DNA from: a virus
DNA length: 42,441 nucleotides
Virus record (IMG/VR): IMGVR_UViG_3300046467_000257
Location: 1 to 42,441 of that record
Direction: 5' to 3' (one strand)
The position numbers and the translations under genes are program-made. Shown here piece by piece: positions 14,977-41,025 of the stretch. The stretch's first letter is position 1; each line of letters starts with the position of its first letter. The notes beneath the pieces are model-generated. The model was not told where the DNA came from, ran no database searches, and saw only the letters and a program-made list of their open reading frames with translations.

Positions 14977-14980
14977 CCCA

Positions 14981-15053
14981 GCAAACGCACCCACCACCTG
15001 GACAAACTGATATCAGGTCTGGGAGCGTTTGCGAGGGTAGCAATAAAGCTGCC
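14981..15053 (+). promoter_or_regulatory. Structured leader: long interrupted hairpin plus short hairpin
   Basis: In plus-strand RNA, GCAAACGC (14981-14988) pairs with GCGTTTGC (15025-15032). Inside it CCC (14990-14992) pairs with GGG (15021-15023), and ACCTG (14996-15000) pairs with CAGGT (15014-15018). The result is one interrupted stem. A second hairpin, GGTAGC/GCTGCC (15036-15041 with 15048-15053), contains a U-G pair that works only in plus-strand RNA. ATTTTAAACCC and a GAGGT start cassette follow. It may be a regulatory leader or a leaky terminator. Confidence 0.55.
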
Positions 15054-15081
15054 ATTTTAAACCCTAACCCAACGAGGTTGC

Positions 15082-15375
15082 ATGAAAGTATATATAAAAG
15101 GTCAGATTATCATTTTTGACGATGACGGCAAAAAACTTGGTTCTAGCGTGCATTACGCTTTTGACTGTAAGCCAACAGAGGATAATTTTGCATCAGTAGA
15201 AGACGAAGACGAAGAAGAACAGACCTGCACTCTGGACGTACTGGAGAACAGAACGCCCCTGCCGACTCAGAGAGTTGAAACTTTAGTTTCTGCTATGATG
15301 GACGGCATCGGGGATAACTTTGATCTCTGGGAGTTGTATGCATCCAGAGACATGAAAGAAAGCGAGGTTGCATGA
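15082..15375 (+). CDS. Early acidic protein, unknown (97 residues)
   Basis: This gene is preceded by GAGGTTGCATGA, a variant of the early cassette found identically before the next gene. The product begins MKVYIKGQIIIFDDDGKK, a beta-hairpin-like start. It has a strongly acidic stretch (VEDEDEEEQ, about residues 40-48) and ends LWELYASRDMKESEVA. It overlaps the next start by four bases. No family is recognised. It opens the second early group after the structured leader. Confidence 0.82.
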   Translation: MKVYIKGQIIIFDDDGKKLGSSVHYAFDCKPTEDNFASVEDEDEEEQTCTLDVLENRTPLPTQRVETLVSAMMDGIGDNFDLWELYASRDMKESEVA

Positions 15376-15530
15376 CTGAAACAGGTTTTTTTGTTGTACT
15401 TGGGATCATAGTTTTTGCGATCCTTATAAATGCGCTGATCTCATTCAGAGCAAAGCGCATCCGGACTGCTTGGAGAAAAAGCAAACTTAACTCTAAGCGT
15501 AATTTACTAACCCAAAAGAAACAGAGGTAA
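15372..15530 (+). CDS. Early small membrane protein (52 residues)
   Basis: This short gene starts at the ATG of GAGGTTGCATGA, overlapping the previous stop by four bases, and ends in the TAA that lies within the next gene's cassette. The product has one N-terminal transmembrane segment (FFVVLGIIVFAILINALISF, residues 6-25). A very basic cytoplasmic tail follows, with RAKRIRTAWRKSK. The positive-inside rule places the N-terminus outside. The tight coupling on both sides makes it a credible gene despite its size. Function is unknown; a membrane-acting early peptide is plausible. Confidence 0.78.
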   Translation: MTETGFFVVLGIIVFAILINALISFRAKRIRTAWRKSKLNSKRNLLTQKKQR

Positions 15531-15531
15531 T

Positions 15532-15723
15532 ATGACAATGAAAGAAGAATTAATTAAACTTGGTTTTGTCTTGGAGAAAATAGACGAGTATGAAGTATGC
15601 TTTGAGCTTAACCTGTCAAATGGCGGTTGTATCGTGATTAATTCAAATGACGATACAGACAACGAAGATATCCAAATCACGCTAAAGAATGATTCAGGAT
15701 ATGAATTTATTTTTAAACACTAA
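15532..15723 (+). CDS. Early small protein, unknown (63 residues)
   Basis: This gene has the exact GAGGTAATATGA cassette, one base after the previous stop. The product begins MTMKEELIKLGFVLEKIDEY and looks like a helix followed by beta strands with an acidic loop (NDDTDNEDIQITLK). It is soluble and acidic. No family is recognised. A possible second start codon (ATG, residue 3) lies just downstream. Confidence 0.8.
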   Translation: MTMKEELIKLGFVLEKIDEYEVCFELNLSNGGCIVINSNDDTDNEDIQITLKNDSGYEFIFKH

Positions 15724-15737
15724 ACCACAGAGGTAAT

Positions 15738-15992
15738 ATGAGTAAAATAATAATAGATATGCCAAATGCAAAATTGAAAGATGCAGTAGAAAAGAAATTG
15801 GCAGAAGAAACAAAGTATCGTGGCAATGGGCTTGCCGATCCGTGGAAATGCCCAGCCTGTAAAGATACAGTAACAGACTTTCCGGCAATATCACGGAGAG
15901 ACAACGAAACAGAAATCTGCTCGCAATGTGGCAATGACGAAGCCCTAGCGGATTATCGCCGACAATCAACCACACCCAGAGAGGTAATATGA
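15738..15992 (+). CDS. Early zinc-ribbon protein (84 residues)
   Basis: This gene has the exact GAGGTAATATGA cassette. The product has two CxxC knuckles, CPAC at about residues 38-41 and CSQC at about 61-64, separated by about 20 residues. That is the spacing of a zinc ribbon. The N-terminal part is helical (AKLKDAVEKKLAEETKYRG). It overlaps the next start by four bases. Small zinc-ribbon proteins in phages often bind nucleic acid or host RNA polymerase, but the target is unknown here. Confidence 0.82.
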   Translation: MSKIIIDMPNAKLKDAVEKKLAEETKYRGNGLADPWKCPACKDTVTDFPAISRRDNETEICSQCGNDEALADYRRQSTTPREVI

Positions 15993-16315
15993 AGAAACCA
16001 AACAAGGAAGAAAAAGCAATCCTTAAAAAAGACCTGAAAAAGTATGTTAAAAAAGGTTCAACAGTCTTTACCACATTAGGCAAAGACCCTTCCAGTTCTG
16101 GAATGTATCGACACATAAAATTGCTTGTAATAAATAAGAAAAGAATTTTAAATCTTTCTTATAGTGTTGGACAACTCACAGGCTGGACATATAAAGACAA
16201 GACTAATTCAATCGGGGTTGGCGGTTGCGGAATGGATATGGGCTACCATTTAGTCCATAATTTAGGCTATTATCTTTATGATGACGGCTACGCAATCAAG
16301 CATCAATGGATTTAG
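15989..16315 (+). CDS. Early conserved-type phage protein, unknown (108 residues)
   Basis: This gene has the GAGGTAATATGA cassette and a four-base overlap with the previous gene. The N-terminus is very basic (KKPNKEEKAILKKDLKKYVKK). The rest contains PSSSGMYRHIKLLVI, LSYSVGQLTGW and VGGCGMDMGYHLVHNLGYYL, ending YAIKHQWI. I recall phage hypothetical proteins with the SGM(Y/S)R and GGCGMDMG(F/Y)HLV pattern, but not a function. The invariant-looking Cys, Asp and His in GGCGMDMGYHLV suggest an active or metal site. It ends the second early group. Confidence 0.85.
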   Translation: MKKPNKEEKAILKKDLKKYVKKGSTVFTTLGKDPSSSGMYRHIKLLVINKKRILNLSYSVGQLTGWTYKDKTNSIGVGGCGMDMGYHLVHNLGYYLYDDGYAIKHQWI

Positions 16316-16325
16316 TCCCAACTAT

Positions 16326-16393
16326 AGGCAGCAGTCCTTCGGGGCTGTTGCTTGTAGTGTGGATTTACTGCACTACAGTCCTTCAGGGACTGT
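16326..16393 (+). ncRNA. Cluster of three RNA hairpins between early genes
   Basis: Hairpin 1 pairs GCAGCAGTCC (16328-16337) with GGGCTGTTGC (16342-16351) around a TTCG tetraloop; its two G-U pairs work only in plus-strand RNA. Hairpin 2 pairs GTAGTG (16354-16359) with CACTAC (16371-16376). Hairpin 3 pairs ACAGTCC (16375-16381) with GGACTGT (16387-16393). Hairpins 2 and 3 share two bases and so compete. Hairpins 1 and 3 are near-repeats (CAGTCCTTC-GGG-CTGTT). No U-tract follows. They could be processing sites or a regulatory RNA. Confidence 0.55.
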
Positions 16394-16418
16394 TTAACCC
16401 TATCCTACGAGGTAACAC

Positions 16419-16703
16419 ATGGATATAATTTGCAGACATTGCGGAGAGCCTATAGACATAGACGAACTGCACGAAACTAAATACGATTATAAGGTTATGA
16501 GTAACTTATTCCGTATTTATGGTTGTGGTGCTTTTGATCATGTCTGGGGAGATCGTCCGCTAGTGCCTTGTGATCGTTTTGCAATCAATCAAAACGCTGC
16601 TGCTTTATCGGGAGCGATGCAAGATATATCGCCCTATGCAGAAGAATGGTCGCAGGACTTTGACTCTTTACTGGAACAGTCCAGCAAGGAACTTGTAACT
16701 TAA
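16419..16703 (+). CDS. Early zinc-binding-type protein, unknown (94 residues)
   Basis: The start is the ATG of GAGGTAACACATGG, a looser variant of the cassette with a spacer two bases longer. The product begins MDIICRHCGEPIDIDELHE. CRHC plus later cysteines (YGCGAF near 51, VPCDRF near 67) could form a zinc site. An NQNAAALSGAMQDISPYAEEW segment follows. Phage proteins starting with CxxCGEP are common and uncharacterised. It stands alone between two hairpin-bearing gaps. Confidence 0.82.
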   Translation: MDIICRHCGEPIDIDELHETKYDYKVMSNLFRIYGCGAFDHVWGDRPLVPCDRFAINQNAAALSGAMQDISPYAEEWSQDFDSLLEQSSKELVT

Positions 16704-16712
16704 TTAAATCAT

Positions 16713-16734
16713 GGCGCAGCTTTACGGCTGCGCC
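16713..16734 (+). promoter_or_regulatory. Hairpin leader before 16753 gene
   Basis: GGCGCAGC (16713-16720) pairs perfectly with GCTGCGCC (16727-16734) around a six-base loop, 19 bases before the start codon. No U-tract follows. It occupies the same position relative to the start cassette as the other early hairpins. Confidence 0.55.
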
Positions 16735-16752
16735 TCAATCAATAGAGGTAAT

Positions 16753-17334
16753 ATGAGTAAAAAAGATGAATATTTAATATCTGAATTTATTCTTGATAAG
16801 ATCGAGAGAAATTTGGAAGAAGCAATACAGGAAATTAGGCAAGCTAGGGATGCAGGTAAAAGTGCAGGTAAATTAACCAAAGAAGAGAGAGGCTTCACAA
16901 AAAATTATGAGGCTTTCAGTAATCTGAAGACAGGCACATGGATTCGGCTTGACACTTGGCAAATCGAAAACCACACCTACATGATTGACAGGAACTATAT
17001 CAATTTTGCAGGTGAAACAGGAACCATTGTTAAAAATGAGGTTGAGCAGTTGAGGGGAGAATATGGAGTTGGTGAAACCCGGCAATATATTGAACTGAAA
17101 CTGGACAAGCATTTTCCGGGTTTAGATGAGTTTAATAATTGTTTGTCTTGGGAGATTGAGGAGCGTTTAAGATTTGATGGTGACAATGCGCTTTTTGTTG
17201 AGTGCGAGGAATTGATTCCCAGTTTTGATATCCTATTGGATTCCGGGCAGACTCTTGATGGTACAGGATACGGAATTAAACCAAGAAAATCCAACGATCA
17301 GGAAAACATCCGCAGGATTAAGGAAGTTGAATAA
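16753..17334 (+). CDS. Early protein, unknown (193 residues)
   Basis: I start the gene at 16753, in the exact GAGGTAATATGA cassette. The frame opens earlier at 16711, but that part runs through the hairpin and lacks a ribosome site. The product begins MSKKDEYLISEFILDKIERN. A long amphipathic helix (residues 8-45) is followed by a mixed domain with TGTWIRLDTWQIENHTYMID and an acidic C-terminal half. No family is recognised. The gene's last bases run into the A-tract of the opposing-strand terminator. Confidence 0.82.
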   Translation: MSKKDEYLISEFILDKIERNLEEAIQEIRQARDAGKSAGKLTKEERGFTKNYEAFSNLKTGTWIRLDTWQIENHTYMIDRNYINFAGETGTIVKNEVEQLRGEYGVGETRQYIELKLDKHFPGLDEFNNCLSWEIEERLRFDGDNALFVECEELIPSFDILLDSGQTLDGTGYGIKPRKSNDQENIRRIKEVE

Positions 17335-17336
17335 AT

Positions 17337-17376
17337 AAAAAACCCCACTCCGGATAACCCTAAAACCGAAGTGGGG
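17337..17376 (-). terminator. Factor-independent terminator of the replication operon
   Basis: Read leftward, the RNA has CCCCACTTCGG (17376-17366) pairing with CCGGAGTGGGG (17353-17343), 11 pairs including one U-G, followed by six U (17342-17337). In the plus direction the U-G becomes a C-A mismatch and no U-tract follows, so the element works leftward. It lies beyond the end of the primase gene and stops leftward transcription before the early genes. It also sits in the leader of the last early gene. Confidence 0.85.
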
Positions 17377-17400
17377 CAAACCCATCACCGAGGTAACGTG

Positions 17401-17613
17401 ATGAATTTTAATTATAACCTAAAAGGAGATAAAATGAAAGAGAATTTACCCCAAGTCCGAATCTCAAAACAGGCAGATAAACTGCTTGAAAAGTTTCTGG
17501 ACAAGTATGAAGAGATATATGGGCTTCGTCAGACAAAAACATGGTTTGTTACGAATTGTGTACTAAATGGACTGAAAAAAGAAGCTCAGATCAATGCAGG
17601 TGGTAACGAATAA
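17401..17613 (+). CDS. Ribbon-helix-helix-type regulator candidate with two starts
   Basis: Two starts in one frame are possible. One is ATG 17401 (or GTG 17398), next to the early cassette GAGGTAAC (70 residues). The other is ATG 17434, four bases after AAGGAGAT (59 residues). From the inner start the protein reads MKENLPQVRISKQADKLLEK, then RQTKTWFVTNCVLNGLKKE. A short strand (QVRIS) followed by two helices is the Arc/CopG-like pattern of dimeric DNA-binding regulators. It could bind the palindromes of the control region, but that is unproven. It is the last rightward gene and faces the opposing operon. Confidence 0.7.
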   Translation: MNFNYNLKGDKMKENLPQVRISKQADKLLEKFLDKYEEIYGLRQTKTWFVTNCVLNGLKKEAQINAGGNE

Positions 17614-24597: not shown

Positions 24598-24705
24598 TTA
24601 TCTAGGGGGGAAATAGTTGGGGGGATTTTTACGCAAATGGGCTACAGACAGTTCGTGTAACTTCTGTAACCTTAATAAATGTGCTATTTTTTCTTCTCTA
24701 GTCAT
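24598..24705 (-). CDS. Possible 35-residue protein overlapping the giant gene's end
   Basis: An ATG at 24705 overlaps the end of the 2482-residue gene by eight bases, with AAAGG seven bases upstream. The product is a charged helix (TREEKIAHLLRLQKLHELSV) with a Pro-rich end (KNPPNYFPPR). The two runs of six G on the plus strand are then Pro codons. The ribosome site and coupling make it plausible, but its size allows chance. Confidence 0.4.
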   Translation of the reverse strand: MTREEKIAHLLRLQKLHELSVAHLRKNPPNYFPPR

Positions 24706-27700
24706 AGATCGCCTTTACAACTGCTTTCGATGCAGTTGTTTTAGCTGTTTTGGACGTTCCAACCATTGCAAACAGTCCAGCAAGCAAAGTACCTAGAGGG
24801 CCAAGGTTAGCAAGGAACGTAGGATTAGAGACTGCGGCAACAATAGTTGGAGTTATAACCAGAGTGTAGAAAGCCTCAAGTGCTTTCTTTTCTGCACTTG
24901 TGGTATTGGGTGAATTAGTCTCGTCAATAAAGTATTCAATTATGTTGGTTGCAGGTAGCATATAATACCCCGGAGTTGCACCAACAATACTTGTAGCCAA
25001 GTCTCTCCGGTAACGTACTGCCCTGTATGATTGATACCAAGGTTCTATAAAACCTAATGCTCCGGATCGGTTAAATGAAATTTCTGCAAGATATTTTTCA
25101 AGTGTAAATTCCCCTTCCTTTTTCTTCTCCTCCCATTTTTCCCTGTCCAGCAGGTACATCCTTAAAGCAGATACCATTACATGACCTATATATAATTGGA
25201 ATATCGGCCCCATTAACTTAGCCGCATTAGCATTTGCGGTAATACTCCCCAGATGTTTCTTATCTCTCTGGTAGCGTTTGAACTCTGCGGTTAAGACGTT
25301 ACGAGTAAACGAATAGTTAAATGATTGGATGGAATAAACGAGCCTCCCAACTACAGTTTCCGCATACCTTGGTCTGGAAGAGATCATAGGATTCTGGATA
25401 CTCCTGTCGGTAATCCTGAGAGTTGAGATGGAAAGCAACTGTGCCATTTCTGTTAAAGTTCCATCCGAAAGCATAAGGCTATCGGGAGATATATTATTTT
25501 TATAGACGTTTGTCATGTATTCAGAAAATTCTTTTAGCTGGTTTTTTGGAATACCCAAGTCCATCAGCTCCATCTCTGCTGCTTTCTTATTTTTGGCAAT
25601 TGCTTCCTTACTCATTCCTACAGGGTTGTTGTACTGATCACCAAGTTCCCTCAAATACTGGAAGCTCACCAGCATAGTAGCTCTTCTTTGGGCGTTTGTT
25701 ACGCCCTGAAGAGCAGTCCGCACAAAGAAGGTATTCATACGTTCCTGATTCCGGGGATCGTCAGCCAAGTGGCCTCCCATTCTCTCTGCCATCATTTCTC
25801 CAATATCGGGATCATCGAAAACACCAAGGATTGCCCCAATCTGTTTTTTCAGTTGGGTGCGTTGTGCAGCATCTTTATTTACTTTACCAAGTAGTTCATC
25901 CAGAGTATGAACAAAGGTCTTTAACCCTTTCATTGTAGACCGCATTTTGATCCCTGCAACAAAAGGTTCAGGAAGTGAAGTTGCAACTGCTCTTGGGAGC
26001 AACGACATAAGAGCAAAACTATGGAACGTATTCAGGGTCTTCATTGTGCCAGTATCTATAGGAGCAGTCCTGCCTAAAATACCATCCAGATCATAGCGCA
26101 TCATGTGAATATCATTCTCATGCACACCCTTTTCTGCCATCTTGTCAAAAAGATATTCCTTGTAGTCCCTTAGTTGCATTGATCCGGGTTTGCGTTTATC
26201 TCCTACTGGGATTTTGTGTCTGCCAAACAGTCTCTCGTATTCTACCTTCCTGACCAAGCTGGTGATGTATGATTGGATTGCATCAACTGGGGATAGGTAA
26301 AAATCAACCATTATGGTATCTGCTTCCTTTGGTAGTTTTCTTGACTTTGTAAACTTGCCTCCTATTGGGGATGATTTTGAAGGGTCTTCTCCTGCTTTCA
26401 CAAATAATCGCACCCTCCAATCACTCGCACCAGCTTTTGCCCATTCATCAGAGATAGCTTCATAGCCTTCGGTCATTATTTCTACAGTATCCTCATGTGC
26501 CATTATCTCATCAATTTTCTCCTGAACCTCTCCTATCTTCTCCTCCTTGTTTTCAATATATTCCTTACTATCCTCCATCTCAGTTATTTCATCTTTTAAC
26601 CTTTTTACACGCTTACTGAGTCTTGCCAGTTTATTGATTGCTTCGTTTAAATCCCTGTAGTCTTTTTCTCCTGCAATATCTCCGATACTAACGAGCTGGT
26701 CTGAAGAAGTTGTATCCAAGATACCATGATCATTCTTCCAAATTACGTTCTTGTAGAGTTTCTTTGCCTGATTAAGAAATCCTTGTTGATCACCATGAAC
26801 AAGTGACAAATCAATCATTCTGGGTAAGTATGCGTTCTTATCCAAGAAGTTCATTTCAACATGATTATTGTTTGCATAATCCCAAAGGCTGTTGAGCATT
26901 TTCCTCATATCCTTGGCATAGCCCAATATGTTTTTATCTATTTCACCTCTCTTGGCTTTGGCTAGAGTTTCAGGATCAGAGGTTGCAAACAACCTGAGAG
27001 TCTTTAAATCCTCCTCAGTAAATGCCTCTGCCTTCCATTTGTTTGAGAGGTTTTTAAAGATAAAGGCTCTACGTCTAAGTTCCCTTGGTACAGCATCATT
27101 CCAAGTGTTACTTGTGAACCTTTCCCCACCGGGATCAGGCATTACAAGGTTCATTATCTTTTCAATTTCTTTGATATGTGGATAACGTCTTTGATATGAC
27201 TCAAAGTTACCCTGCTTAGAACCTATATATGTAGACCATACTAAGTCACGCATTTTATAATAGGCGTTTTTCAGTCTGCCAACATCCCTATATTTTAACT
27301 TCCTTTTTGCAAGCCTATCCTGTCTCTTCTTCCATCGGTTTGCCTTCCTCTTGGTTACTGCGGTTCCTTCCTGCCAACCTGTTTTTGTTATCAGGGGAGC
27401 TTGGGGTTCAGGCTTATATAATGTAGGATAGTCGTGTATTGGGCCTTCTTTTGCTGAAGCCGCTTCTTCGTCTTTGTAGAAGACATCTGCCATTGCATCA
27501 AACAGGTCATCGAATTTTGAGAATATATTTAAGCGATCCGATTCCTGTGGAAACATTTTATCTATAAGTGCATAAGAGGAAACATCCTTTGCAGTCATTA
27601 TATAGTCAGAGTTGGGCATACCCAGATATTCTGTCCCCGGCATCTTGGGGTTGACAGCTTCCCCTAGCTGTATTTTATTCCCATTAAATGTGTCCTTGTG

Positions 27701-30700
27701 TGTATGCGCCTGTTGAGTCACTATGTGGGCAACATACGCTTCAAAGGCTCTTGCAAATAGTTCAGTAGGTTCACTCCAATACTCCGCATTTTGACCCGGC
27801 ATATCACCTATGTATTCTGCACCCAACTTAAATTTGCTTTTGTCCAGGTGCTTCTTGCTCATCCCATCTTTCAGCTCCTGTATTTGCCGATTGTATTTGT
27901 CAATTACTTTCTGTGATCTTGCCTTGGTAAGTTTTTGTTGTAAATCCATTATTGCTGCGGCATCTGCACCATGTTCGTAAAACAGCGAATTAAGCAAATC
28001 TGCAAAGGCAAACTTAAATCGTTCTGGAGCAGGTACATTACTCAACCATGCATCGGCAGCTTCCTTGCCCCTTAACCTGCCAGACATTCCTGAGTGCCAT
28101 CCTTCACCCAGTTTGGTTAGGATATGATAGTCAAGAGCATGACCCCATTCGTGAGCAAATGCTTGTGACCTTCCTGTTATTGTAATAAATGGGAATATAG
28201 TGTGACCACCTACCTGCATCTGTGCAGGGTTTGGGTTGTACCATGCAGGGAATTTTCCTGATCGGAGTCTGCCTTGCAATCCCAATGTTCCATCCAATCC
28301 CATGAATTGCAAAGGTATCCCAAGAGCTGCCGCCATACCTTCACCATTCTGGTAAAGGTTCATCATATTGTTAATGGTAACTTCTACAGTAGGTGGGGCA
28401 GGTTGTTTATATACTAACATACCTTTAGGAAGTTCATCATCAACGAACTTAAACCTGAACTTTTCCTCCACCATTTTCTGCATCCTTTTGGCAAGAACCT
28501 TTGGGGGCAGGTTTCTAAGTATTGCTATCCTAGATTCAAGGTCTAAATCAGCAGACATACTTTCGTCCTGCATTGCCATATCAACAAAAATTTGTTCTCT
28601 GACAGAGGAGCTGATTTCCTTCGTCTTGGTTAGGATTCCTTTTGTTCCTTTTTGGGGGGCTGCTCGGACTGACTCTCTTCCGCTAGGACTTCCTTTAGGG
28701 ACTGTTGGACGATCCCCTTCATCAATCTCAAGCTCTCCTTGCTTCTTTTTCTTTTTTGCTTTGGCATCTTTAATCTCCTGTTCTGCTTTTGTTTCCTTAA
28801 TTGATTCTGCTAAAACATCTCCTATGGGAGCTGTTTCAGAGAATTGCTCTAAACCGGGTATCCCAGCAGAGTAGTCTTGTGCAAGAATTTTGTCAACAGT
28901 TCTTGTAAGAACTTTTGTAATAAATTCCTTTGATCTAGTCCTGTCTCCATCATCATTATAAAATGCTTCTATCAGGGATTCGCTCAGTTCCGTTTCTTCT
29001 TGCTCAAATAATTTATCCTGTCTCTGGTCATCTGCAAGTGTAGTCCTAGTTTCCTTAAAGGCTTTAATTTTCTCAACGGCCTCTATTATATAAGGTGCAA
29101 TATCCATATCGGCAGGGATATCGCCTTTATCTATTTTATTAGCTACTTCGGAGAATCTTGGTGCGGCATTTAACATTGCCGATTTAAGTGATTTTATCTT
29201 ATTATCCGGGTCTTCCAGAGCAGCAAGGACAGTTTCGTTTTCACCATAGGCGGCTGTAAGAAGTGCATCTTCAATACGCCTTATTCCTGAAACAGATATA
29301 TCCCTTCCGTTGGCTTGGAAAAAGTCTCCAGCCTCTGTATCAGAAACAGCTTTTGCCGCAAACTGCTGTATAAAGTCTGAGTTAGTTGCCGCTTTTACAT
29401 CTGAACTTTTCATAAGATGGGCAATAGTCTTCAGGACTTTCCCATCAGACTTTGCTCTTTCAAAAGTTGACATTGTGTCAACCTTAGAGATATTGCTTGC
29501 ATCAGCAAATTTAACTGCTTGCTCATACTGTTGCTTTTCGGTCTTGCCCCACTCATCTGTCTTGATACGTTGCACCAAGATAGGACGTTCCATCCCCTCA
29601 ATATCACCAAGTTTCTTCAGTTCTGCTAAGTATTTTTCTTTCTGAACAGAAAGGTCTGGATTATCGTAAAGCTCAGTTATTGTGAGAGTTCTACCATTTC
29701 CTGAAAGGATAACCCCGGATGGTGTAATAAGTGGCGGCCCCGATTCTGAAGTTCTTATAGGCTCAACTACTTGGGCAGGATCAAACTTTACGGCTCTGTT
29801 TCTGGCAAGATCGGCAGACTGTTGTCTTCCTCTATCCCTACCCTGCAATCTATCTCTTGCAAATTCTACTTCTGAAAGATCAAGTATTACAAGGTTCCTT
29901 CCTACTTCCATTGAACCATCAGGAGTAACTACTGTCGCATTTGTACCTTGGATCGCCTTGCGTTTAAATCCCGGTTCTCCTTCTGAAACGAGCTTCTTTG
30001 CCTTAACAGTCTGGGGTGGGATTATTTTTTCCCTAACTTTCGGTTTCTCTTCTACTACTTCCTCTTCTACCTCAACTTCTTCCTCTACTACTTCTTCTAC
30101 TTTTTCATCCTCTGTAAGTTTAATTTCACCTTCTTTTTCGCCTTCCTGAAAAGTCTTCTCTGCTGCCTCCTCATACTCCTTTAACTTGGCTTTTTCGTCT
30201 TCACTACCCTTGGCTATGGTTTCAGGTTCAGTCTCAACAACAACTTCCTCTACAGTAGACTCCTGTTCAGGGCTGACTTCGGTTTTGTCACCTTCAGGGA
30301 ACATTGCATTAAACTGTCCCAAAGCAGCTTTTTTAGTTTTGTATAATCTACCTTCAAAAAGGGTATGCCACTTGTCTCGCTCCCCCTCCCTAAATTCGCT
30401 ATTCTTGTACTTAACAACCCAACGGCTTTTATGCCCCTGACTTCTGACTATTTGATATTCAATCTTGGCGGCATCAGAAAATGCAGAAGGCTCCTGATCC
30501 TCAGTTGGAGAGACACCCTTGGATAGTGGTGTGGACACATCCAAGGTCTGAGAACCAGAAGCCACTTCTTCTTCAGGTCGTGTGTCTGGGGTGAGTTTAC
30601 CAGTAGGGAGACGGACGGATGTTCGTTGTGTTTTGTCAATTGGTTCAAAGGGTTTAGTTGGTCTTTCCCCTACATTGGCTGGAGTTTCTGGGACAAACTT

Positions 30701-32146
30701 TTCAGTTCTACCCTTTATTGGATCAGGAACTTTTATAATTCCGGGGCTTGGTTTTGCAAGCCTTGTTGCTTCCTGTTGTGCCTGTAACTTAGCAAGCTGA
30801 TCCCCAAAATATTCTGACCTTCTTTGTTTAAGGACTGCACTTGCATCTTGGACTGCCCCCACTCCACCTCTAATCGGCCCACCAGCAAGACCACCACCTA
30901 TGAAAGCCTCCTCAAGCTGTTCGGCTTCTTCTCCGGGTTTGTAAAAATCACCCTTTTGCCCTGCTTTCGCAAATGCCTTCTTTGCAGTTTCTTGAATTAC
31001 TTTTTGCTGAGCAGCCTCCGTTCCTGCCTCTCCAAAGAAACCTGTGGCTGTCCTTGCTACTGGTTTTTTAATTACTTCAACAGCAAATTTCCTAGCCGCA
31101 GATTTGCCAGCGTGTTTCTCTATGTACTTGGTAAGTGCAGGTACACCAATCTTTGCTAGTGCAGTCTTTGGGATACCCCTTACAACAAGTCCTAACCCCA
31201 CAATTTCCAATGCACCAGCAATCAATCCTCCTGCTTCTGCCAATTCTAGCTGTGTTTTACTATCCAACCCCGGAATTGACCTTATTTCATGGTTCACCTC
31301 TGCTTCCAAGAGCAGGGGTGATGCAAGCCCCATTGTCACCATACCTGCTAACATTGATGGCCCAGTTGAACCAGCCAATCCTACAAGGTAATCTGTGAAG
31401 TTAGTTCCAAACTCTGTTTCCTTCCATGACAATGGACGGCCTAAAGCACTTGACTTTTTAAACCATTTTTCTGCTTCTTCAAGCAGCTCTATTTCTTGTT
31501 CCTTGCTTAGTTTTTCCCGATCTGGTCTATATTTTGGCGGCCCCATCATTGATGCTCCAATTGCCGCATACGGAGAAAGACCAGCAATCTTTTGCAGATA
31601 TAACTCTGGGTTTTCCCGGTAGGCTTTTTCCTTATCTGCCCAGAGAGTCAGCATCCTTCCTGCTAATCCATAAGAGCCAGATTTAATGGAGTCTATCAAA
31701 TCTGTGTTAGTGAAAGCCTTTGGTTGCTCTTGTGGCTCCTCCATATCCATAGTAATGGGATGGTCGTAGTACATTGGATAACCTTCGGAGCTGGGCTGTA
31801 TCGGCAGGGTAGGATCAGCTTCATGGATTTGTGGGGAGTAAGGTCTGGTGTCAGGGACGGCTGGTTTTTGAGTTGTCCACTCAGTTGCAGACTCCATACC
31901 GGTGGGGGGTATAATTGTCTGGACGAAGTCAGGCTCCGCAATGATCCTATCAATTGCTGAACTTACTGGAGCAATTTCTTCTGGGGGGAATGTGGTTTCT
32001 TCTGGGACAACTTCTGGGACAACTTCTGGAGAGTCTAAATCATCGAAAAGATGGTCAAACTGGTTGTCTTGGGATATGTTGGCCTGAACCCCTAAATCCG
32101 GGGTTGCCGAATCTTCAGAGAATAAATGGTCGAATTGTGTTGCCAC
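24698..32146 (-). CDS. Giant polyvalent virion protein (2482 residues), ejected with DNA
   Basis: This is the last and largest late gene, in the place of the biggest T7-like ejection protein. A helical, Gly/Ala-rich membrane-active-looking stretch lies at about 250-345, and a long acidic low-complexity region at about 630-740. A ParB/DdrB-like domain contains SGNGRT (815-820). A zinc-peptidase-type HEWGH (1332-1336) is followed by an LPD1-like segment around W1457 with ELFARAFEAYV. Hydrophobic segments occur near the C-terminus. Such multi-domain polyvalent proteins are known to enter host cells with phage DNA and counter host factors. The start is GTG with GGGGGAA upstream, one base from the previous stop. 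Enzyme activities are inferred from motifs. Confidence 0.82.
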   Translation of the reverse strand: MATQFDHLFSEDSATPDLGVQANISQDNQFDHLFDDLDSPEVVPEVVPEETTFPPEEIAPVSSAIDRIIAEPDFVQTIIPPTGMESATEWTTQKPAVPDTRPYSPQIHEADPTLPIQPSSEGYPMYYDHPITMDMEEPQEQPKAFTNTDLIDSIKSGSYGLAGRMLTLWADKEKAYRENPELYLQKIAGLSPYAAIGASMMGPPKYRPDREKLSKEQEIELLEEAEKWFKKSSALGRPLSWKETEFGTNFTDYLVGLAGSTGPSMLAGMVTMGLASPLLLEAEVNHEIRSIPGLDSKTQLELAEAGGLIAGALEIVGLGLVVRGIPKTALAKIGVPALTKYIEKHAGKSAARKFAVEVIKKPVARTATGFFGEAGTEAAQQKVIQETAKKAFAKAGQKGDFYKPGEEAEQLEEAFIGGGLAGGPIRGGVGAVQDASAVLKQRRSEYFGDQLAKLQAQQEATRLAKPSPGIIKVPDPIKGRTEKFVPETPANVGERPTKPFEPIDKTQRTSVRLPTGKLTPDTRPEEEVASGSQTLDVSTPLSKGVSPTEDQEPSAFSDAAKIEYQIVRSQGHKSRWVVKYKNSEFREGERDKWHTLFEGRLYKTKKAALGQFNAMFPEGDKTEVSPEQESTVEEVVVETEPETIAKGSEDEKAKLKEYEEAAEKTFQEGEKEGEIKLTEDEKVEEVVEEEVEVEEEVVEEKPKVREKIIPPQTVKAKKLVSEGEPGFKRKAIQGTNATVVTPDGSMEVGRNLVILDLSEVEFARDRLQGRDRGRQQSADLARNRAVKFDPAQVVEPIRTSESGPPLITPSGVILSGNGRTLTITELYDNPDLSVQKEKYLAELKKLGDIEGMERPILVQRIKTDEWGKTEKQQYEQAVKFADASNISKVDTMSTFERAKSDGKVLKTIAHLMKSSDVKAATNSDFIQQFAAKAVSDTEAGDFFQANGRDISVSGIRRIEDALLTAAYGENETVLAALEDPDNKIKSLKSAMLNAAPRFSEVANKIDKGDIPADMDIAPYIIEAVEKIKAFKETRTTLADDQRQDKLFEQEETELSESLIEAFYNDDGDRTRSKEFITKVLTRTVDKILAQDYSAGIPGLEQFSETAPIGDVLAESIKETKAEQEIKDAKAKKKKKQGELEIDEGDRPTVPKGSPSGRESVRAAPQKGTKGILTKTKEISSSVREQIFVDMAMQDESMSADLDLESRIAILRNLPPKVLAKRMQKMVEEKFRFKFVDDELPKGMLVYKQPAPPTVEVTINNMMNLYQNGEGMAAALGIPLQFMGLDGTLGLQGRLRSGKFPAWYNPNPAQMQVGGHTIFPFITITGRSQAFAHEWGHALDYHILTKLGEGWHSGMSGRLRGKEAADAWLSNVPAPERFKFAFADLLNSLFYEHGADAAAIMDLQQKLTKARSQKVIDKYNRQIQELKDGMSKKHLDKSKFKLGAEYIGDMPGQNAEYWSEPTELFARAFEAYVAHIVTQQAHTHKDTFNGNKIQLGEAVNPKMPGTEYLGMPNSDYIMTAKDVSSYALIDKMFPQESDRLNIFSKFDDLFDAMADVFYKDEEAASAKEGPIHDYPTLYKPEPQAPLITKTGWQEGTAVTKRKANRWKKRQDRLAKRKLKYRDVGRLKNAYYKMRDLVWSTYIGSKQGNFESYQRRYPHIKEIEKIMNLVMPDPGGERFTSNTWNDAVPRELRRRAFIFKNLSNKWKAEAFTEEDLKTLRLFATSDPETLAKAKRGEIDKNILGYAKDMRKMLNSLWDYANNNHVEMNFLDKNAYLPRMIDLSLVHGDQQGFLNQAKKLYKNVIWKNDHGILDTTSSDQLVSIGDIAGEKDYRDLNEAINKLARLSKRVKRLKDEITEMEDSKEYIENKEEKIGEVQEKIDEIMAHEDTVEIMTEGYEAISDEWAKAGASDWRVRLFVKAGEDPSKSSPIGGKFTKSRKLPKEADTIMVDFYLSPVDAIQSYITSLVRKVEYERLFGRHKIPVGDKRKPGSMQLRDYKEYLFDKMAEKGVHENDIHMMRYDLDGILGRTAPIDTGTMKTLNTFHSFALMSLLPRAVATSLPEPFVAGIKMRSTMKGLKTFVHTLDELLGKVNKDAAQRTQLKKQIGAILGVFDDPDIGEMMAERMGGHLADDPRNQERMNTFFVRTALQGVTNAQRRATMLVSFQYLRELGDQYNNPVGMSKEAIAKNKKAAEMELMDLGIPKNQLKEFSEYMTNVYKNNISPDSLMLSDGTLTEMAQLLSISTLRITDRSIQNPMISSRPRYAETVVGRLVYSIQSFNYSFTRNVLTAEFKRYQRDKKHLGSITANANAAKLMGPIFQLYIGHVMVSALRMYLLDREKWEEKKKEGEFTLEKYLAEISFNRSGALGFIEPWYQSYRAVRYRRDLATSIVGATPGYYMLPATNIIEYFIDETNSPNTTSAEKKALEAFYTLVITPTIVAAVSNPTFLANLGPLGTLLAGLFAMVGTSKTAKTTASKAVVKAIYD

Positions 32147-32147
32147 G

Positions 32148-33872
32148 TTATTCCCCCGGTGGTGCAGGTAGAAGCTCCTCCACCCATTGCTCTAATTTCT
32201 GTGTTGCTTGATCTTTAGTAAGACCTAACTTCTGGATCATTGACTTGAGAATTTGCGTTCTTGGTGTGATACCTTGTGCATTTTTAACATCAAGTTTATC
32301 TAATTTACCAGTTTCAGCCAACTCCATAATATCACCATACATTTCGTCATGGGCCTCACCCGGCATATCAGGGACATCCTCATCGCCCCCAAGAAATTCG
32401 GGCCAAAAGTTACCGATCCCACCTTTATCTGCCGGAGCTTTTAGTGGAGCAGGTTTTGGAATCATTTTCAATTTCATCTGATTTGCAAACTTCTCTGCCT
32501 CATTTGTAGCTCTTTCTTCTGCGTATTTCTGGAGATGTGGAGAAAGCAACTGCTGTAAGGCATTTTTATTGTTCATATTGGCTTTCTGTAATATCTTTAC
32601 ATTACGGGCCATATTTACGTCATCCGTCCGTGCTTTTGCCAGCTCTATTTGTTGTTCTCCCTTCCGGATTTTTACCTGCAATTCCTCCGCTTGAGCCTTG
32701 ATCTTCGGGTCAAGGGCATCCAATTCTTTCTTACTCATTGAAGCTAGGTTTACGGCTTTCTCTTTTTGAGCAACTGCCTTCCCTTTCCCTGCCCTTGCTG
32801 TTTCCACTTCTAATAGCTTCAGCGTTTCAGCGTGTTTTTGGTTAAGAGCGGCAATCTTTGCATTGTCTGTTTCTTTCAATAATTTTTGTTTAAGGGTATC
32901 GAGTTTTACCTCCAACGCCCTTTTATCAAGATACAACTCACCACCTTTAGCTTCATCTTCCTTCTGTGCAATACTTGTTTCTGCCACCTTTTTCTTAACA
33001 GTTTCCTTGGCTCCTAGTGTTTTTTGTATCTCTGTCTTTATTGTCTGATCGAGTAACTCCCTTCTCTTTTTAGCCGTTGTTGCCTGTTGGAATCCTTGAT
33101 TCCAATTAATTAATACTCTATCCTGTATTTCTTTTATTTTTTCAGCATTTAGTTTGCCAGCATTACCCGTTCTTGCTAAAACTTCCGCAGTTCTTTCATT
33201 TGCTAATTCTACGTTAGCAACTCCCAGATTTTTTGCTGCCGTTGTTCTTGCTTCAAAAAGACCTACTTTACCAGTAGTTTCACTCTTACCCCTAGCGCCA
33301 GAATAATCCATGTCCGTACCAACCTGACCACCTTGTAACGTGCGTATCAGTCTTGCCCAGCGTTCTTGATCACCTTCGGAATAACCCCTTGCAGGTACAG
33401 TAACATTAGATATGCCGGGCCGTCCCTGTGGCCCTGTGAACACACGTTTGGCGTGTTCTGGAGAACCGCCTACTTCCAATCTTTTTGCTAGTGAAGCTAT
33501 TAAGTTCCCCTTATCAACTGCCTGTTTCTGAAGCTGTGCTTTGCCTTCCTGTTCAGCTATTTGTGATGCAAGCATAGCTTCCTTACTTAACCCTCCCCCT
33601 ATGTCAGTAGAACTTGTAGTGGCAGCCCTTAAAAGTCTTCCGTCATCACTCAAGCCCTCTTGCCCAAGCGCAGCTTTCATTGCTTCAACTAACATACTCT
33701 GCTGAGTGTTTTTTAATTGCTGTCCTTCAGTCTTAGACGTTGTCAGATAGTCACTCATGTTTCTGGATCGCCTACCTCCGGCTCCAGAATCAACACCCAT
33801 CATTTTTTTCACATTATCAACTAGACCTGTGATATCTGGGTTTTTATATTTGTAGTTTTCTGACCAAGCCAT
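32148..33872 (-). CDS. Internal virion (ejection) protein, coiled-coil
   Basis: This 574-residue protein is mostly helical and rich in Lys, Glu, Ala and Gln, with long coiled-coil-like stretches (KVDTLKQKLL-type repeats; KAVAQKEKAV; KAQAEELQVKIRKGEQQIEL). Near the N-terminus are GVDSGAGGRRSRNMSDYLTT and LSKEAMLASQIAEQEGK. It lies between a small membrane-segment protein and the giant protein, where T7-like phages encode the middle ejection protein. AGGATAAAAT precedes the ATG. A part in the DNA-ejection tube is inferred from position and shape. Confidence 0.72.
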   Translation of the reverse strand: MAWSENYKYKNPDITGLVDNVKKMMGVDSGAGGRRSRNMSDYLTTSKTEGQQLKNTQQSMLVEAMKAALGQEGLSDDGRLLRAATTSSTDIGGGLSKEAMLASQIAEQEGKAQLQKQAVDKGNLIASLAKRLEVGGSPEHAKRVFTGPQGRPGISNVTVPARGYSEGDQERWARLIRTLQGGQVGTDMDYSGARGKSETTGKVGLFEARTTAAKNLGVANVELANERTAEVLARTGNAGKLNAEKIKEIQDRVLINWNQGFQQATTAKKRRELLDQTIKTEIQKTLGAKETVKKKVAETSIAQKEDEAKGGELYLDKRALEVKLDTLKQKLLKETDNAKIAALNQKHAETLKLLEVETARAGKGKAVAQKEKAVNLASMSKKELDALDPKIKAQAEELQVKIRKGEQQIELAKARTDDVNMARNVKILQKANMNNKNALQQLLSPHLQKYAEERATNEAEKFANQMKLKMIPKPAPLKAPADKGGIGNFWPEFLGGDEDVPDMPGEAHDEMYGDIMELAETGKLDKLDVKNAQGITPRTQILKSMIQKLGLTKDQATQKLEQWVEELLPAPPGE

Positions 33873-36748: not shown

Positions 36749-38854
36749 CTACCCTGCCTCATTTAATTCATAGTGTACTGCAACATTACCAATCTTGGCA
36801 GCTCCAGCTTTTGCGTTTGTCATCCTCAACGCAAGATGCGTGGAGGTACTAGATAATCCCACTCTTCCAAGTGAATAAGTTGACTTTCCTATCGTTGCCA
36901 CTTTTTCATATTGTGTAATATCTGTTGGATCAGTACCAACGTACAAGTCCCAATCATTCTCAAGTGTTGCATCCAGACCTGTCCACATTTTGTTGTGTGC
37001 AGACTTACCTGCATCCAAGAACGGAAGCTGAATCGTGACGGCTGATGAATCATAGGTTGTGTTAGCTTCTCCACCAAGGCTGTATATTGTATCTCCAGAA
37101 CGGCACAGGATTTGTTTGCCATCAAATGCCCAATCTGAAATCACAAACCCCGGTTCATACGTTGACCATGCAGAAATCTTTGAAGAAGGAAAATAACTAA
37201 ACACATACACTTTGTTACCAATTGCACAAAGATATCGCCCATCTCTAGGGTCTAGGATTGCACAGGCATTTCTAGTATCCTCATCTGAAATAGCCATATC
37301 ATCTATTACCAGATCATCTATCGGATTCCCTATATCACCCACAAAAGCCGCATTTGAAGAATCTCTGGACTTTACTGAACGCACCCCAGATCGTGACAAA
37401 TAATAAACATCACTATCGCCTATCTCCTGAATCGTTTTTCTTGCAACTGTACCAGAATTACCAATTACCTGTATTAAACTTCTTAAATCAGCATTAGGAT
37501 CAGCGTTCCAGATTTGTACTGAATCTGTAGCAAATATTGCCACATTCTCAAAATATGGTGCAATGCCCATTAATTCTGAAGACCCCTGTTGGTGGTTTGA
37601 TAAATCTTCTGTATTAACTCCAGCTTGGCTTTCATCACCCCATTCTGTAGGATCATTGATTTTGCTGGTGTGCCATAATGAATCAGACACAGAGTGCATC
37701 ATTGAATTAAATGATCTTACAAATCCACCTGTCACTACAGCAGTAGCACCTACTATTGCACCATAATTCGTATTGGGAATTGATGCTGTCCTTGTTACAT
37801 CACCTGTTGCTGTAACAACTACTGCCAGAGAATTTGTATCAGTACCACCTTCTTTTGCTATTATATTGACTGTAGCTCCGTATGACGTTGCCTCCCATTC
37901 TGGTGAACTTAGGGAATCGTTTATCTCTTCTGCAATCTTCTCCGCAGTATATGCGTGTGAAGTTTCCCAAAGTACAGAGTCATCTATTATACTAACTGAA
38001 TTTACTGTGATATCAGTAACAGCATTATCAACACCACCAGCCATATTAGATGTTGTTGCAACAAAATCTCCTTCTCCACTAAATGAAACAACAAACCCAT
38101 TCGGGTCTGTACCTACACCTGATGCAGTAATTGTAACTGCTGCTCCAGCGGAAGTTGCAGTATAATTAGGGACTGATGCATAATTCGTAATCGCATTGGC
38201 TATAGTAGTTGCTGTCGTTGAGTGAGAACCTGTATGTGAAACTGTACCAGAGATAATATCTCTATCATTTACCCTCAAATATCTTAATAAATTACCCGGA
38301 TTAAATGTTCCACCTGTGACAGTAAATGTTGCAGTTGCAGCCGTTCCTCCTGCTGTTCCTCCTGTTATATCAAACGATGTTCTTGATCTGGCTTCAATCC
38401 AATCTGCAATTCGGTTTGTAGGGTCACTTCCTCCAGTATAACCATTCCAGTAATGATAAATTGCACCACCCGAAAATTGAACGGCAGCGTATGGCTTACC
38501 CACTAAACTATATGTGTCTGAACTAAAAAAATCTACTCCCAGAACTTCTGTCATAACTTCACTTGAAATTGTACTTGGCGGTTGAAACCGAATATAGTTG
38601 ACGTTAGCTGGCACACCAGACATTGATGGTGCTGAAGCTGAACCAAAAACATAAATTTGCCCTCCTGCTGATGCTAGTCCGTGAGTGCCAGCCGGAAGAG
38701 TAGCGTAGGCTACAAATGCCTTCCGTTTCTCTATCTCACCCCCCCTGGAAATATGGCAGTTTGTGAGTGTTCTAGCTGAACCCGGAATTGAGGTTATTAC
38801 TGTCCTCCGTGTATCTAGTCCTGCCCTGAAATCTTCTACTAAAACGTATGGCAT
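36749..38854 (-). CDS. Tail nozzle (tubular B-like) protein
   Basis: This 701-residue protein begins MPYVLVEDFRAGLDTRRTVI, then TNCHISRGGEIEKRKAF. That opening is typical of podovirus nozzle or tail-tubular-B and P22 gp10-like proteins, which form the distal tail tube. Late in the sequence SAWSTYEPGFVISDWAFDGKQ suggests beta-propeller blades. Residues about 160-360 contain two related beta-rich modules, each with an ANAI/EEIN helix, a Tyr- or Trp-containing strand, a GTD(P/T)N turn and a final TG(E/D)-type strand. That looks like an inserted tandem domain. TAA-ATG joins it to the adaptor gene. Confidence 0.75.
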   Translation of the reverse strand: MPYVLVEDFRAGLDTRRTVITSIPGSARTLTNCHISRGGEIEKRKAFVAYATLPAGTHGLASAGGQIYVFGSASAPSMSGVPANVNYIRFQPPSTISSEVMTEVLGVDFFSSDTYSLVGKPYAAVQFSGGAIYHYWNGYTGGSDPTNRIADWIEARSRTSFDITGGTAGGTAATATFTVTGGTFNPGNLLRYLRVNDRDIISGTVSHTGSHSTTATTIANAITNYASVPNYTATSAGAAVTITASGVGTDPNGFVVSFSGEGDFVATTSNMAGGVDNAVTDITVNSVSIIDDSVLWETSHAYTAEKIAEEINDSLSSPEWEATSYGATVNIIAKEGGTDTNSLAVVVTATGDVTRTASIPNTNYGAIVGATAVVTGGFVRSFNSMMHSVSDSLWHTSKINDPTEWGDESQAGVNTEDLSNHQQGSSELMGIAPYFENVAIFATDSVQIWNADPNADLRSLIQVIGNSGTVARKTIQEIGDSDVYYLSRSGVRSVKSRDSSNAAFVGDIGNPIDDLVIDDMAISDEDTRNACAILDPRDGRYLCAIGNKVYVFSYFPSSKISAWSTYEPGFVISDWAFDGKQILCRSGDTIYSLGGEANTTYDSSAVTIQLPFLDAGKSAHNKMWTGLDATLENDWDLYVGTDPTDITQYEKVATIGKSTYSLGRVGLSSTSTHLALRMTNAKAGAAKIGNVAVHYELNEAG

Positions 38855-39568
38855 TTATGAAACTCTTGCTATTAATACTGGCCCCCTTGGTTGATAACCT
38901 GCTGGTTCTTCTGCACCAAAAACTACTGATGTAGTCTTTGAAAGTCTCGCTTTTATCCGCTGATAATGTTGTTGGGCTTGTTGCATTTTTATTTGTGCAT
39001 CTGGGCTTTTTTGTCTTGCCAATAATTCTCCTGCTGCAAAAAGCACAATCAATTGATCATCTAAATCAGCCGTATCTGTTTTTGCAGACAGGGCATTTAG
39101 ATTCTTAATACCCTCCAACCTCAGTAGACCTTCTTTCGTTGTTGTCGATCCATTGTTTGACGGCACAGGCCAGACTTCAATCTGTCCTGCAATAGTTCCA
39201 TACGCATCAAATCTCATAACAGGCCATGAGCGTACATCAAGGTCAGAATCATATTGGTTGTAATGACCTGCATCAATTCCGAAAGTTACCCTATCCCAAT
39301 GGTTCCCCCACCTGAAACTAGCATTTTCAATTCGTTCTAAGGTGAGGGGTGAAGGAATATCGTAATACCTCTGACCTGCTTGCATGGCGATATCAGACTT
39401 TACTCTCAGGAAAGGCCATGCAAAATCTTCCCACAAACGCCTTTGCACCCTGTTCAGTAATTTCAGTAGCATTGTCTCGGTTGCCTGACCAAAGTTTGAG
39501 GCAATCGAGTGTCCTGCTTCTGCCCTTAAATCATCCAACAAAACTTGGAGAGTGGTATTTCTAGCCAT
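38855..39568 (-). CDS. Head-tail adaptor protein
   Basis: This 237-residue protein begins MARNTTLQVLLDDLRAEAGH. It continues with MLLKLLNRVQRRLWEDFAWP, a pattern frequent in podovirus adaptors (P22 gp4/T7 gp11-like) that sit under the portal. The YYDIPSPLTLERIENASFRWG segment and a helical C-terminal LLARQKSPDAQIKMQQAQQH support this. The start overlaps the upstream stop (TAATG). The order capsid, small protein, adaptor, nozzle is standard for the group. Confidence 0.78.
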   Translation of the reverse strand: MARNTTLQVLLDDLRAEAGHSIASNFGQATETMLLKLLNRVQRRLWEDFAWPFLRVKSDIAMQAGQRYYDIPSPLTLERIENASFRWGNHWDRVTFGIDAGHYNQYDSDLDVRSWPVMRFDAYGTIAGQIEVWPVPSNNGSTTTKEGLLRLEGIKNLNALSAKTDTADLDDQLIVLFAAGELLARQKSPDAQIKMQQAQQHYQRIKARLSKTTSVVFGAEEPAGYQPRGPVLIARVS

Positions 39569-39969: not shown

Positions 39970-41025
39970 TTACTGAATTTCGTAAACGCCATGACAGTTA
40001 AGTTGAGAAGCACAAAGTACAGCAGTAGTCGTGATCGCACGATAGATAACATAACTATCATGTGGTCTTGCTGGAGAGTGCCTTGCCATTTTCTCACCAT
40101 CCATATAATGCAAATACATTTTAGTAGGATCAATGATGTAACAGCGTTTGTTACCATCTTTTCCAGTGAGGTTAATGTCATCAAGTTCAGGATCATACTG
40201 AAACTTAATCCCTTGATAAAACAACTCACCCATTGAAAAGTCTTGTTTCCCTGAGAAACCAGTTTGGGTATAGTTACCCTTTGCCCTCAATTGACTTGCA
40301 AGACGATCCAGAAAAGCACTTCCGCAAACTGCTATTGAAGGTTTTCCTCCATAGCGGCGCAGTTGCCGAATTTCTGTATGTATCAAGTCAGTCAATTCTG
40401 ATCCAGTTGCAGTAGTTGCAATTGAAACATTAGTGCGGTTTCTCCACCATGTATTTGACACAGTAGAAAGTCCACCAACTGTAGTACCCGATGCCGTGGG
40501 GTCTTGAGTAATAATGGACTGAATACCAGCGAGTGCTTTCGCATCACCAGTTCCGTCACCATAGAGTAAACTGTTCATCCCACGAGCATAACCCTCTGCC
40601 ATGTCTTCCAATTTGTCATCTAACAAATTAGCTAGTGCGTGTTGCTCACGCCCTGACATAGAAGATGTTGACTCACCAGTTGTTGAATCAGAAACGGAAA
40701 TTCCGTCATGCTTCAACTCTGTGAGAGTCACACTAATACCTGTGTGATGTTCCTTCCAAGGATAGTTTACCCTCTGGATATTCGCAGGATTTGCGTAGGT
40801 GACTGTATCAGTCGCTACGTATCCGGTAACTCCAGAAGTATAGACTCCCTTGACTGCAAGCGAAACATTTCCCTTGCCGCCCGGCATGGTTTTCGCTGTC
40901 TTTTCCATCGCTGCCAGCAATGGTTTGTCTTGTAGGGTCTGGCTAAAAATCTTCCCCTTATTGACATAATAATCCAATGCAGCATTTGCTACGTTGGCTA
41001 ATTGGGCAGTTGTAAGTGCTGCCAT
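39970..41025 (-). CDS. Major capsid protein
   Basis: This 351-residue protein follows the scaffold gene, the normal order. It begins MAALTTAQLANVANAALDYY and contains YPWKEHHTGISVTLTELKHD. A long helix is followed by EGYARGMNSLLYGDGTGDAK, which looks like the spine helix and P-domain of an HK97-fold capsid subunit. LRRYGGKPSIAVCGSAFLDR and FQYDPELDDINLTG continue it. AAGGAG lies upstream of the ATG but inside a palindrome. The call rests on position, length and overall HK97-like character. Confidence 0.85.
   Translation of the reverse strand: MAALTTAQLANVANAALDYYVNKGKIFSQTLQDKPLLAAMEKTAKTMPGGKGNVSLAVKGVYTSGVTGYVATDTVTYANPANIQRVNYPWKEHHTGISVTLTELKHDGISVSDSTTGESTSSMSGREQHALANLLDDKLEDMAEGYARGMNSLLYGDGTGDAKALAGIQSIITQDPTASGTTVGGLSTVSNTWWRNRTNVSIATTATGSELTDLIHTEIRQLRRYGGKPSIAVCGSAFLDRLASQLRAKGNYTQTGFSGKQDFSMGELFYQGIKFQYDPELDDINLTGKDGNKRCYIIDPTKMYLHYMDGEKMARHSPARPHDSYVIYRAITTTAVLCASQLNCHGVYEIQ

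Follow-up and report, generated by a model that had tools for sequence, protein, structure and literature searches.

The internal virion protein gp16 of phage T7 has a DNA-binding C-terminal part, assigned to the cytoplasmic side, and a periplasmic N-terminal transglycosylase, the conservation of which does not extend to P22 or Sf6 (PMC8954989). For polyvalent proteins, processing has been proposed, and DdrB of phage P1, reported to be both processed and packaged, is the case with known processing (Iyer et al., 2017, PMC5512222). Injection follows as a prediction from the concept of polyvalent proteins, which the literature searched does not, however, tie to a structurally known ejection machine. 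Here, we describe a giant open reading frame (ORF) in the IMG/VR record IMGVR_UViG_3300046467_000257, the whole of which (42,441 nt, positions 1 to 42,441) is the window analysed. We consider it likely, with a probability of roughly 0.7, that its product is a gp16-type ejection protein of a short-tailed phage that has been enlarged into a polyvalent protein carrying enzymatic cargo.

The original prediction gave the ORF coordinates exactly and left out the strand, which is minus. The GTG start is separated by one base from the preceding gene, and the protein found a full-length match in its own record. A ddrB-ParB domain and an LPD1/zincin domain stand in this single ORF, i.e., at least two domains differing in activity in one chain of phage or plasmid origin, by which Iyer et al. 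(2017) define polyvalent proteins; that part of the original prediction was correct. The layout of the protein is as follows:

24698..32146, minus strand: giant ORF, 2482 amino acids (aa), GTG start; probable gp16-type ejection protein with polyvalent cargo
30767..32146, minus strand: residues 1-460, acidic N-terminal segment with a single hydrophobic stretch at 307-325 (hydropathy scan); weakly conserved
29942..30769, minus strand: residues 460-735, variable E/K/V-rich linker; ratio of non-synonymous to synonymous substitution rates (dN/dS) of 0.44 with the close relative L002, higher than in the following domains
29012..29941, minus strand: residues 736-1045, ddrB-like ParB module with a conserved helical continuation; conserved in 58 relatives
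29687..29704, minus strand: residues 815-820, SGNGRT motif with the ParB/Srx-type Arg819
27482..28528, minus strand: residues 1207-1555, putative zincin metallopeptidase domain of the CLCA_X type (predicted structure, fold matches, invariant residues)
28130..28153, minus strand: residues 1332-1339, HEWGHALD, putative zinc-binding and catalytic helix; H, E, W, H and D invariant in 78/78 relatives
27491..27793, minus strand: residues 1452-1552, LPD1 (PF18796), putative C-terminal half of the zincin
27740..27763, minus strand: residues 1462-1469, ExxARxxE, with E1462 as proposed third zinc ligand on the LPD1 helix
24701..27226, minus strand: residues 1641-2482, all-helical gp16-like part (internal virion protein D), the putative ejection part

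The C-terminal part and its relation to gp16

The ejection-protein position named in the original prediction agrees with our data in two respects: genes for an SU10-type capsid protein and adaptor are found upstream of it, and the C-terminal third of the protein (about 840 residues) is, judged by profile comparisons and a predicted fold, homologous to gp16 of T7 and SP6 (internal virion protein D). A structure model of residues 1572-2482, based on 50 sequences (as for all models described here, the alignment excluded sequences of the phages collection), is all helical with a predicted local distance difference test score (pLDDT) of 83.8 and a predicted template modelling score (pTM) of 0.81. 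In VIA-align, ranks 1-3 are podoviral ejection cores, namely those of T7 (Z 8.3 over 264 residues), PhiM1 (7.1, 263 residues) and E1004 (6.7, 280 residues), and lower rows align at most 81 residues, except for one at a root-mean-square deviation (rmsd) of 18 Å. Foldseek against BFVD returned 56 matches with E <= 0.001, many of them labelled as polyvalent-protein or internal virion proteins, with E values of 1.6e-8 to 5.1e-6 for the annotated internal virion proteins.

Since helical folds match by accident, a sequence-profile test was added, using a protein D profile built from T7, KNP, ICP3, yong1, Ninurta and SP6. In hhalign, the family aligned with this profile over 337 columns (residues 1997-2366) with a probability of 85.7, a P value of 5.5e-6 and a score of 61.9, compared to 18.9 for the reversed profile; none of 60 column shuffles exceeded 25.7. 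Besides, the profile of family segment C2 puts five T7-type gp16s above every shuffled or reversed decoy, and that of segment C3 ranks SP6 gp37 first (E 4.7e-6).

Several results weigh against an assignment as enlarged gp16. The Z score of 8.3 falls inside the stated noise of VIA-align for helical bundles, and neither this model nor that of the zincin domain described below had a Foldseek match in the PDB with E <= 0.001. Unlike T7 gp16, the giant protein has no transglycosylase (SLT) match in Pfam. The reverse search with the gp16 profile on the family sequences was weak, with a best score of 8.7 versus 6.9 for a decoy. Given this result and a Z score within the noise range, it is the forward search, the profile-profile comparison and the fold in combination that support homology to gp16.

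Judging from the homology to gp16, the giant protein is probably packaged, ejected and delivered together with the DNA, and would bring its enzymes into the bacterium as infection begins. The C-terminal 840 or so residues would be the ejection chassis. Packaged inside the head, this part would pass out via portal and tail and help to form a DNA-carrying channel through the envelope, like T7 gp16. The N-terminal half would be the cargo on this chassis, composed of the DdrB-like ParB module and one zincin made up of HEWGH plus LPD1.

The zincin domain and LPD1

LPD1 has been counted among the domains whose precise functions remain elusive (Iyer et al., 2017). Here, PF18796 matches at 1452-1552 with E 3.7e-10 (40 bits versus a cut-off of 27), and HEWGH at 1332-1336, the numbering of which had been given exactly, is the only HExxH in the protein. 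Both elements of the original prediction, a metal-peptidase-type HEWGH and an LPD1-like segment, are present, but instead of two modules with separate activities, sequence conservation and fold prediction argue that together they form a single zincin metallopeptidase, to which each contributes one half. This conclusion draws on co-invariant motifs, on independently found LPD1 proteins and on one fold model spanning both motifs.

First, ten residues (H1332, E1333, W1334, H1336, D1339, Y1456, E1462, A1465, R1466 and E1469) are invariant in 78/78 relatives, all of which are also matched by the LPD1 profile; in a wider set, nine of them are invariant in 88/88 and Y1456 is kept in 87/88. The relatives carrying these residues are mostly at 20-40% identity. 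The conservation of HEWxHxxD is above chance; FAHEW was among the patterns used to scan the collection, but the viral scan imposed no selection on H1336, D1339, E1462 and E1469. Second, in a reverse test the LPD1 Pfam profile was run on more than 1400 whole genomes, with already known genomes set aside, and all six new LPD1 proteins above the cut-off (L122-L126, L128) have HEWxHxxD upstream in the same ORF; ExxARxxE was found by pattern in five of them. LPD1 searches by order and class yielded few new cases, and one sub-threshold match (L127, 26 bits) without HExxH was taken as spurious. Third, a single model of residues 1167-1656 (77 sequences, mean pLDDT 78.7, pTM 0.74) covers both motifs, and rows 1-12 and 15 of its VIA-align comparison are zincin or HExxH-domain structures. 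Anthrax lethal factor provides the best row with its catalytic domain (Z 9.9, 190 residues, rmsd 5.1 Å); further rows are the Bacteroides zinc peptidase 4l7a (8.0), the HExxH domain of an oxygenase (7.6) and M30 and M61 peptidases (5.1 and 4.2), and the first unrelated row has 5.4. Other peptidases of polyvalent proteins have already been profile-matched to the same fold (Iyer et al., 2017). A PDB sequence search with the zincin profile found no relative.

The separate treatment of HEWGH and LPD1, which the original prediction and the LPD naming imply, can appeal to Pfam, where LPD1 is a 78-residue family of its own, and to the 78-143 residues that set the two motifs apart. Nevertheless, we regard two separate domains as very improbable, since HEWxHxxD and ExxARxxE are co-invariant, HEWxH recurs in 6/6 independent LPD1 proteins and a single fold model includes both.

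In the model, E1462 and E1469 lie on a helix (294-314) with a mean pLDDT above 90, and the site is probably gluzincin-like with E1462 as third zinc ligand. The invariance of the site suggests that the peptidase is active. A different ligand, the Asp following HExxH, is proposed in the CLCA_X paper, which prints the consensus HExxHxxxD (PMC3650047); HEWGHALD, in comparison, places D1339 three residues past the second His. An Asp three residues after HExxH is also a mark of the phage-type metallopeptidase clade of Iyer et al. (2017), together with a conserved His at the end of strand 2. Of these, the Asp is present as D1339, whereas the candidate His is not conserved in the relatives L002 or L005.

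A profile search of each domain had been suggested as a check: ddrB-ParB and LPD1 pass their Pfam cut-offs, whereas no peptidase model of Pfam or NCBIfam reaches its own and none in Pfam covers HEWGH. The NCBIfam model NF041907 (CLCA_X) matches partially at 1452-1493 (30.2 bits versus a cut-off of 260, profile positions 180-221 only), and the domain appears to be a relative of CLCA_X, not a member as defined by the full-length model. In bacterial genomes, it also occurs alone as a protein of 263-273 aa (L111, L123, L124), the same size as that of the founding CLCA_X protein (PMC3650047). No paper linking LPD1 with the CLCA_X zincin was found in the literature searched. LPD1, a Pfam domain of unknown function, would gain a likely role as half of a zinc peptidase.

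The ParB module, varying cargo and the proposed role of the zincin

The ddrB-ParB profile (PF18763) matches residues 751-861 with E 6.6e-16 (59 bits versus a Pfam cut-off of 27.6), and the SGNGRT motif of the predicted DdrB/ParB-like segment starts at residue 815, as had been numbered. The domain is of a DNA-binding/nuclease type. In tblastn, residues 790-1001 match P1 DdrB with 27% identity over that part only. SGNGR is retained in 56-57 of the 58 ParB-bearing relatives, which is above chance, and R819 and Y839 are each kept in 57/58. The DdrB-like ParB domain is described with an active-site Arg and a conserved Tyr in an extra helix (Iyer et al., 2017), and R819 and Y839 would be the residues meant. 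A PHROGs search returned families of unknown function only, with the significant matches covering the ParB part.

A scan with the whole protein found three close relatives. When the HEWGH-LPD1 and C-terminal parts were used instead, about 85 distinct proteins were found: most are IMG/VR entries, a small number come from genomes of alphaproteobacteria and one belongs to a named phage, Microcystis phage Mae-Yong1326-1; the counts are biased by the FAHEW pattern, and some loci are near-copies. In these relatives, the zincin-LPD1 part is always fused to the same C-terminal gp16-like part following it. Complete relatives (n = 57) have 1748-2906 aa with a median of 2307, and 41 of them contain the ParB module. 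Among all 58 ParB-bearing proteins, the module precedes the zincin in 57. The profile of residues 1-460 matches only 8/93 relatives. Every module covered by two close relatives is under purifying selection, with dN/dS values versus L002 and L003 of 0.21-0.32 in ParB, 0.20-0.28 in the zincin and 0.15-0.19 in the gp16-like part; the value for the linker refers to L002 only. In place of ParB, L070 (incomplete at the 3' end) carries an ADP-ribosyltransferase of polyvalent proteins (E 2.8e-29) and Mae-Yong1326-1 a second zincin-like motif, HELGH (M78-like, weak), while in most ParB-less relatives nothing Pfam-recognisable was found at this position. On an alphaproteobacterial contig (L107:3-5561), the module order is reversed, with LPD1-zincin first and ddrB-ParB at the C-terminal end.

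According to its description (PMC9503304), Mae-Yong1326-1 (L005, OP028995.1) is a Microcystis phage whose flexible tail measures 340 nm. The sequence fetched under this accession (43.5 kb, 71.6% GC), however, contains a cassette of the podovirus type, including a gp16-like giant gene, the relatives of which include Sphingopyxis- and Devosia-type genomes, and genome, micrograph and host may not be of one origin. The label "peptidoglycan transglycosylase" of this homologue has no Pfam support. In Bordetella phage BPP-1, bbp10 (L129:6187-12345) encodes 2052 aa at the same place of the cassette, with LPD22, PBECR1, HESGH and EQFARGFEAY. The latter two motifs were seen by eye, and a profile comparison of the giant-protein family with Bbp10 was not significant; perhaps Bbp10 is a distant cousin with RNase cargo.

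As for the role of the zincin, we tentatively propose that it acts mainly on its own polypeptide and cuts the ParB module free after entry, which could then act on DNA in the cytoplasm. This proposal was made because a module acting on DNA can be of use only in the cytoplasm, whereas the N-terminal part of T7 gp16 stays periplasmic; a peptidase seated between cargo and chassis would resolve this by releasing the former. Moreover, the zincin is the sole enzyme retained by all relatives, in contrast to the changing cargo. The periplasmic N-terminus of T7 gp16 (PMC8954989) is, conversely, hard to reconcile with an N-terminal module that acts on DNA, except when this module is set free, and no cleavage site was identified in the giant protein.

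Less probable, but still the strongest alternative, is an effector that cuts host proteins after entry (e.g., in restriction, the nucleoid or another defence), with ParB acting separately on DNA. Such a function would need no fused substrate, as the stand-alone zincins of 263-273 aa illustrate, and host targets are allowed for such peptidases by Iyer et al. (2017). However, the constant fusion of zincin and gp16-like part next to a varying module fits processing at least equally well. Action on host defences is possible. We consider it rather improbable that the zincin works in the periplasm or envelope, e.g., on peptidoglycan peptides or envelope proteins, as a replacement of the T7 gp16 transglycosylase: a periplasmic N-terminal part of T7 gp16 and the missing transglycosylase would agree with this, but Mae-Yong1326-1 retains the same zincin plus a further zincin-like motif, CLCA_X relatives also occur as stand-alone proteins of bacterial chromosomes with no evident envelope role, and an M15 peptidase is encoded separately in the phage. 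It is hardly credible that the giant protein is a structural or tail protein, the enzyme domains of which have decayed and are inactive, for the catalytic residues are invariant across the relatives and dN/dS is low in both modules.

Extending self-release by the zincin to the family, it is conceivable, if doubtful, that a large set of short-tailed phages use gp16-type ejection proteins as a general chassis for delivering proteins. The gp16-like C-terminus and the zincin in front of it would be constant, the N-terminal module (ParB, ADP-ribosyltransferase, second zincin or others) would be swappable, and the zincin would free this cargo inside the host. If true, a conserved chassis with changing cargo would reveal what such phages bring in at entry, and why. 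Homology to gp16 would supply polyvalent proteins with an ejection machine, and their delivery becomes directly testable.

Genome context and comparison with known systems

The giant gene ends a minus-strand run that leads from the capsid via the tail to small internal genes:

32148..33872, minus strand: 574-aa gene upstream of the giant gene, possibly gp15-like from position and size only
36749..38854, minus strand: 701-aa tail/packaged-DNA-stabilising protein, named by position
38855..39568, minus strand: SU10-type adaptor protein (PF24175, E 1.4e-11)
39970..41025, minus strand: SU10-type major capsid protein (PF17236, E 2.8e-05, barely above the cut-off)

The 574-aa gene had no Pfam match, and the synteny test of the relatives gave no homologue of it. 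A terminase large subunit gene is also present in the window, and the set of terminase, SU10-type capsid and adaptor fits a short-tailed phage, as expected. Where the upstream sequence extends over at least 5 kb (58 relatives), the DNA-stabilising protein is found upstream on the same strand in 53 and the adaptor in 33; the profiles of the 209-aa and 557-aa genes converged on the same ORFs (profile drift), and their counts were not used. The sole clear cell-wall enzyme seen is a Peptidase M15 gene (window 4399-4797, minus strand, E 6.8e-14). Nine small ORFs of unknown function form a block at 14141-17613 on the plus strand, opposite to the late genes. The first and last 410 bases (1-410 versus 42032-42441) match at 96% with 15 mismatches, so that the window is close to a complete genome; the genome may be circular or terminally redundant, and the ends, which are not identical, perhaps reflect assembly from a mixed population.

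Compared to described systems, the giant protein, which is probably ejected as well, resembles the virion RNA polymerases of N4 and DEV, giant ejected proteins with enzyme and zincin-like parts (Iyer et al., 2017), but it carries other enzyme cargo in place of an RNA polymerase. With CLCA_X (PMC3650047; NF041907), known from phages and plasmids, it appears to share the HExxH zincin and the following Asp; the CLCA_X paper proposes the Asp as extra ligand, whereas we propose E1462 of LPD1. LPD1 (PF18796) itself is significant here, but is read as the C-terminal half of the zincin and not as a separate domain of unknown function. As in P1 DdrB, a DdrB-like ParB domain and a metallopeptidase share one chain, but P1 is a myovirus and ParB is fused here to a gp16-like chassis. 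ORF38 of Mae-Yong1326-1 (2441 aa), annotated as a transglycosylase, has the zincin-LPD1 and gp16-like parts at 25-30% identity and the same gene order, but HELGH instead of ParB. Finally, the gene order of capsid, adaptor/tail, small internal proteins and large protein is that of T7 gp16-type systems, and with T7 gp16 and SP6 gp37 the giant protein appears to have in common the homologous helical C-terminal part and the place as last large gene of the head/tail cassette. In contrast to T7 gp16, its N-terminal half consists of ParB and zincin instead of a transglycosylase, and, in line with the size difference noted in the original prediction, its surplus length (2482 versus 1318 aa) is the N-terminal cargo.

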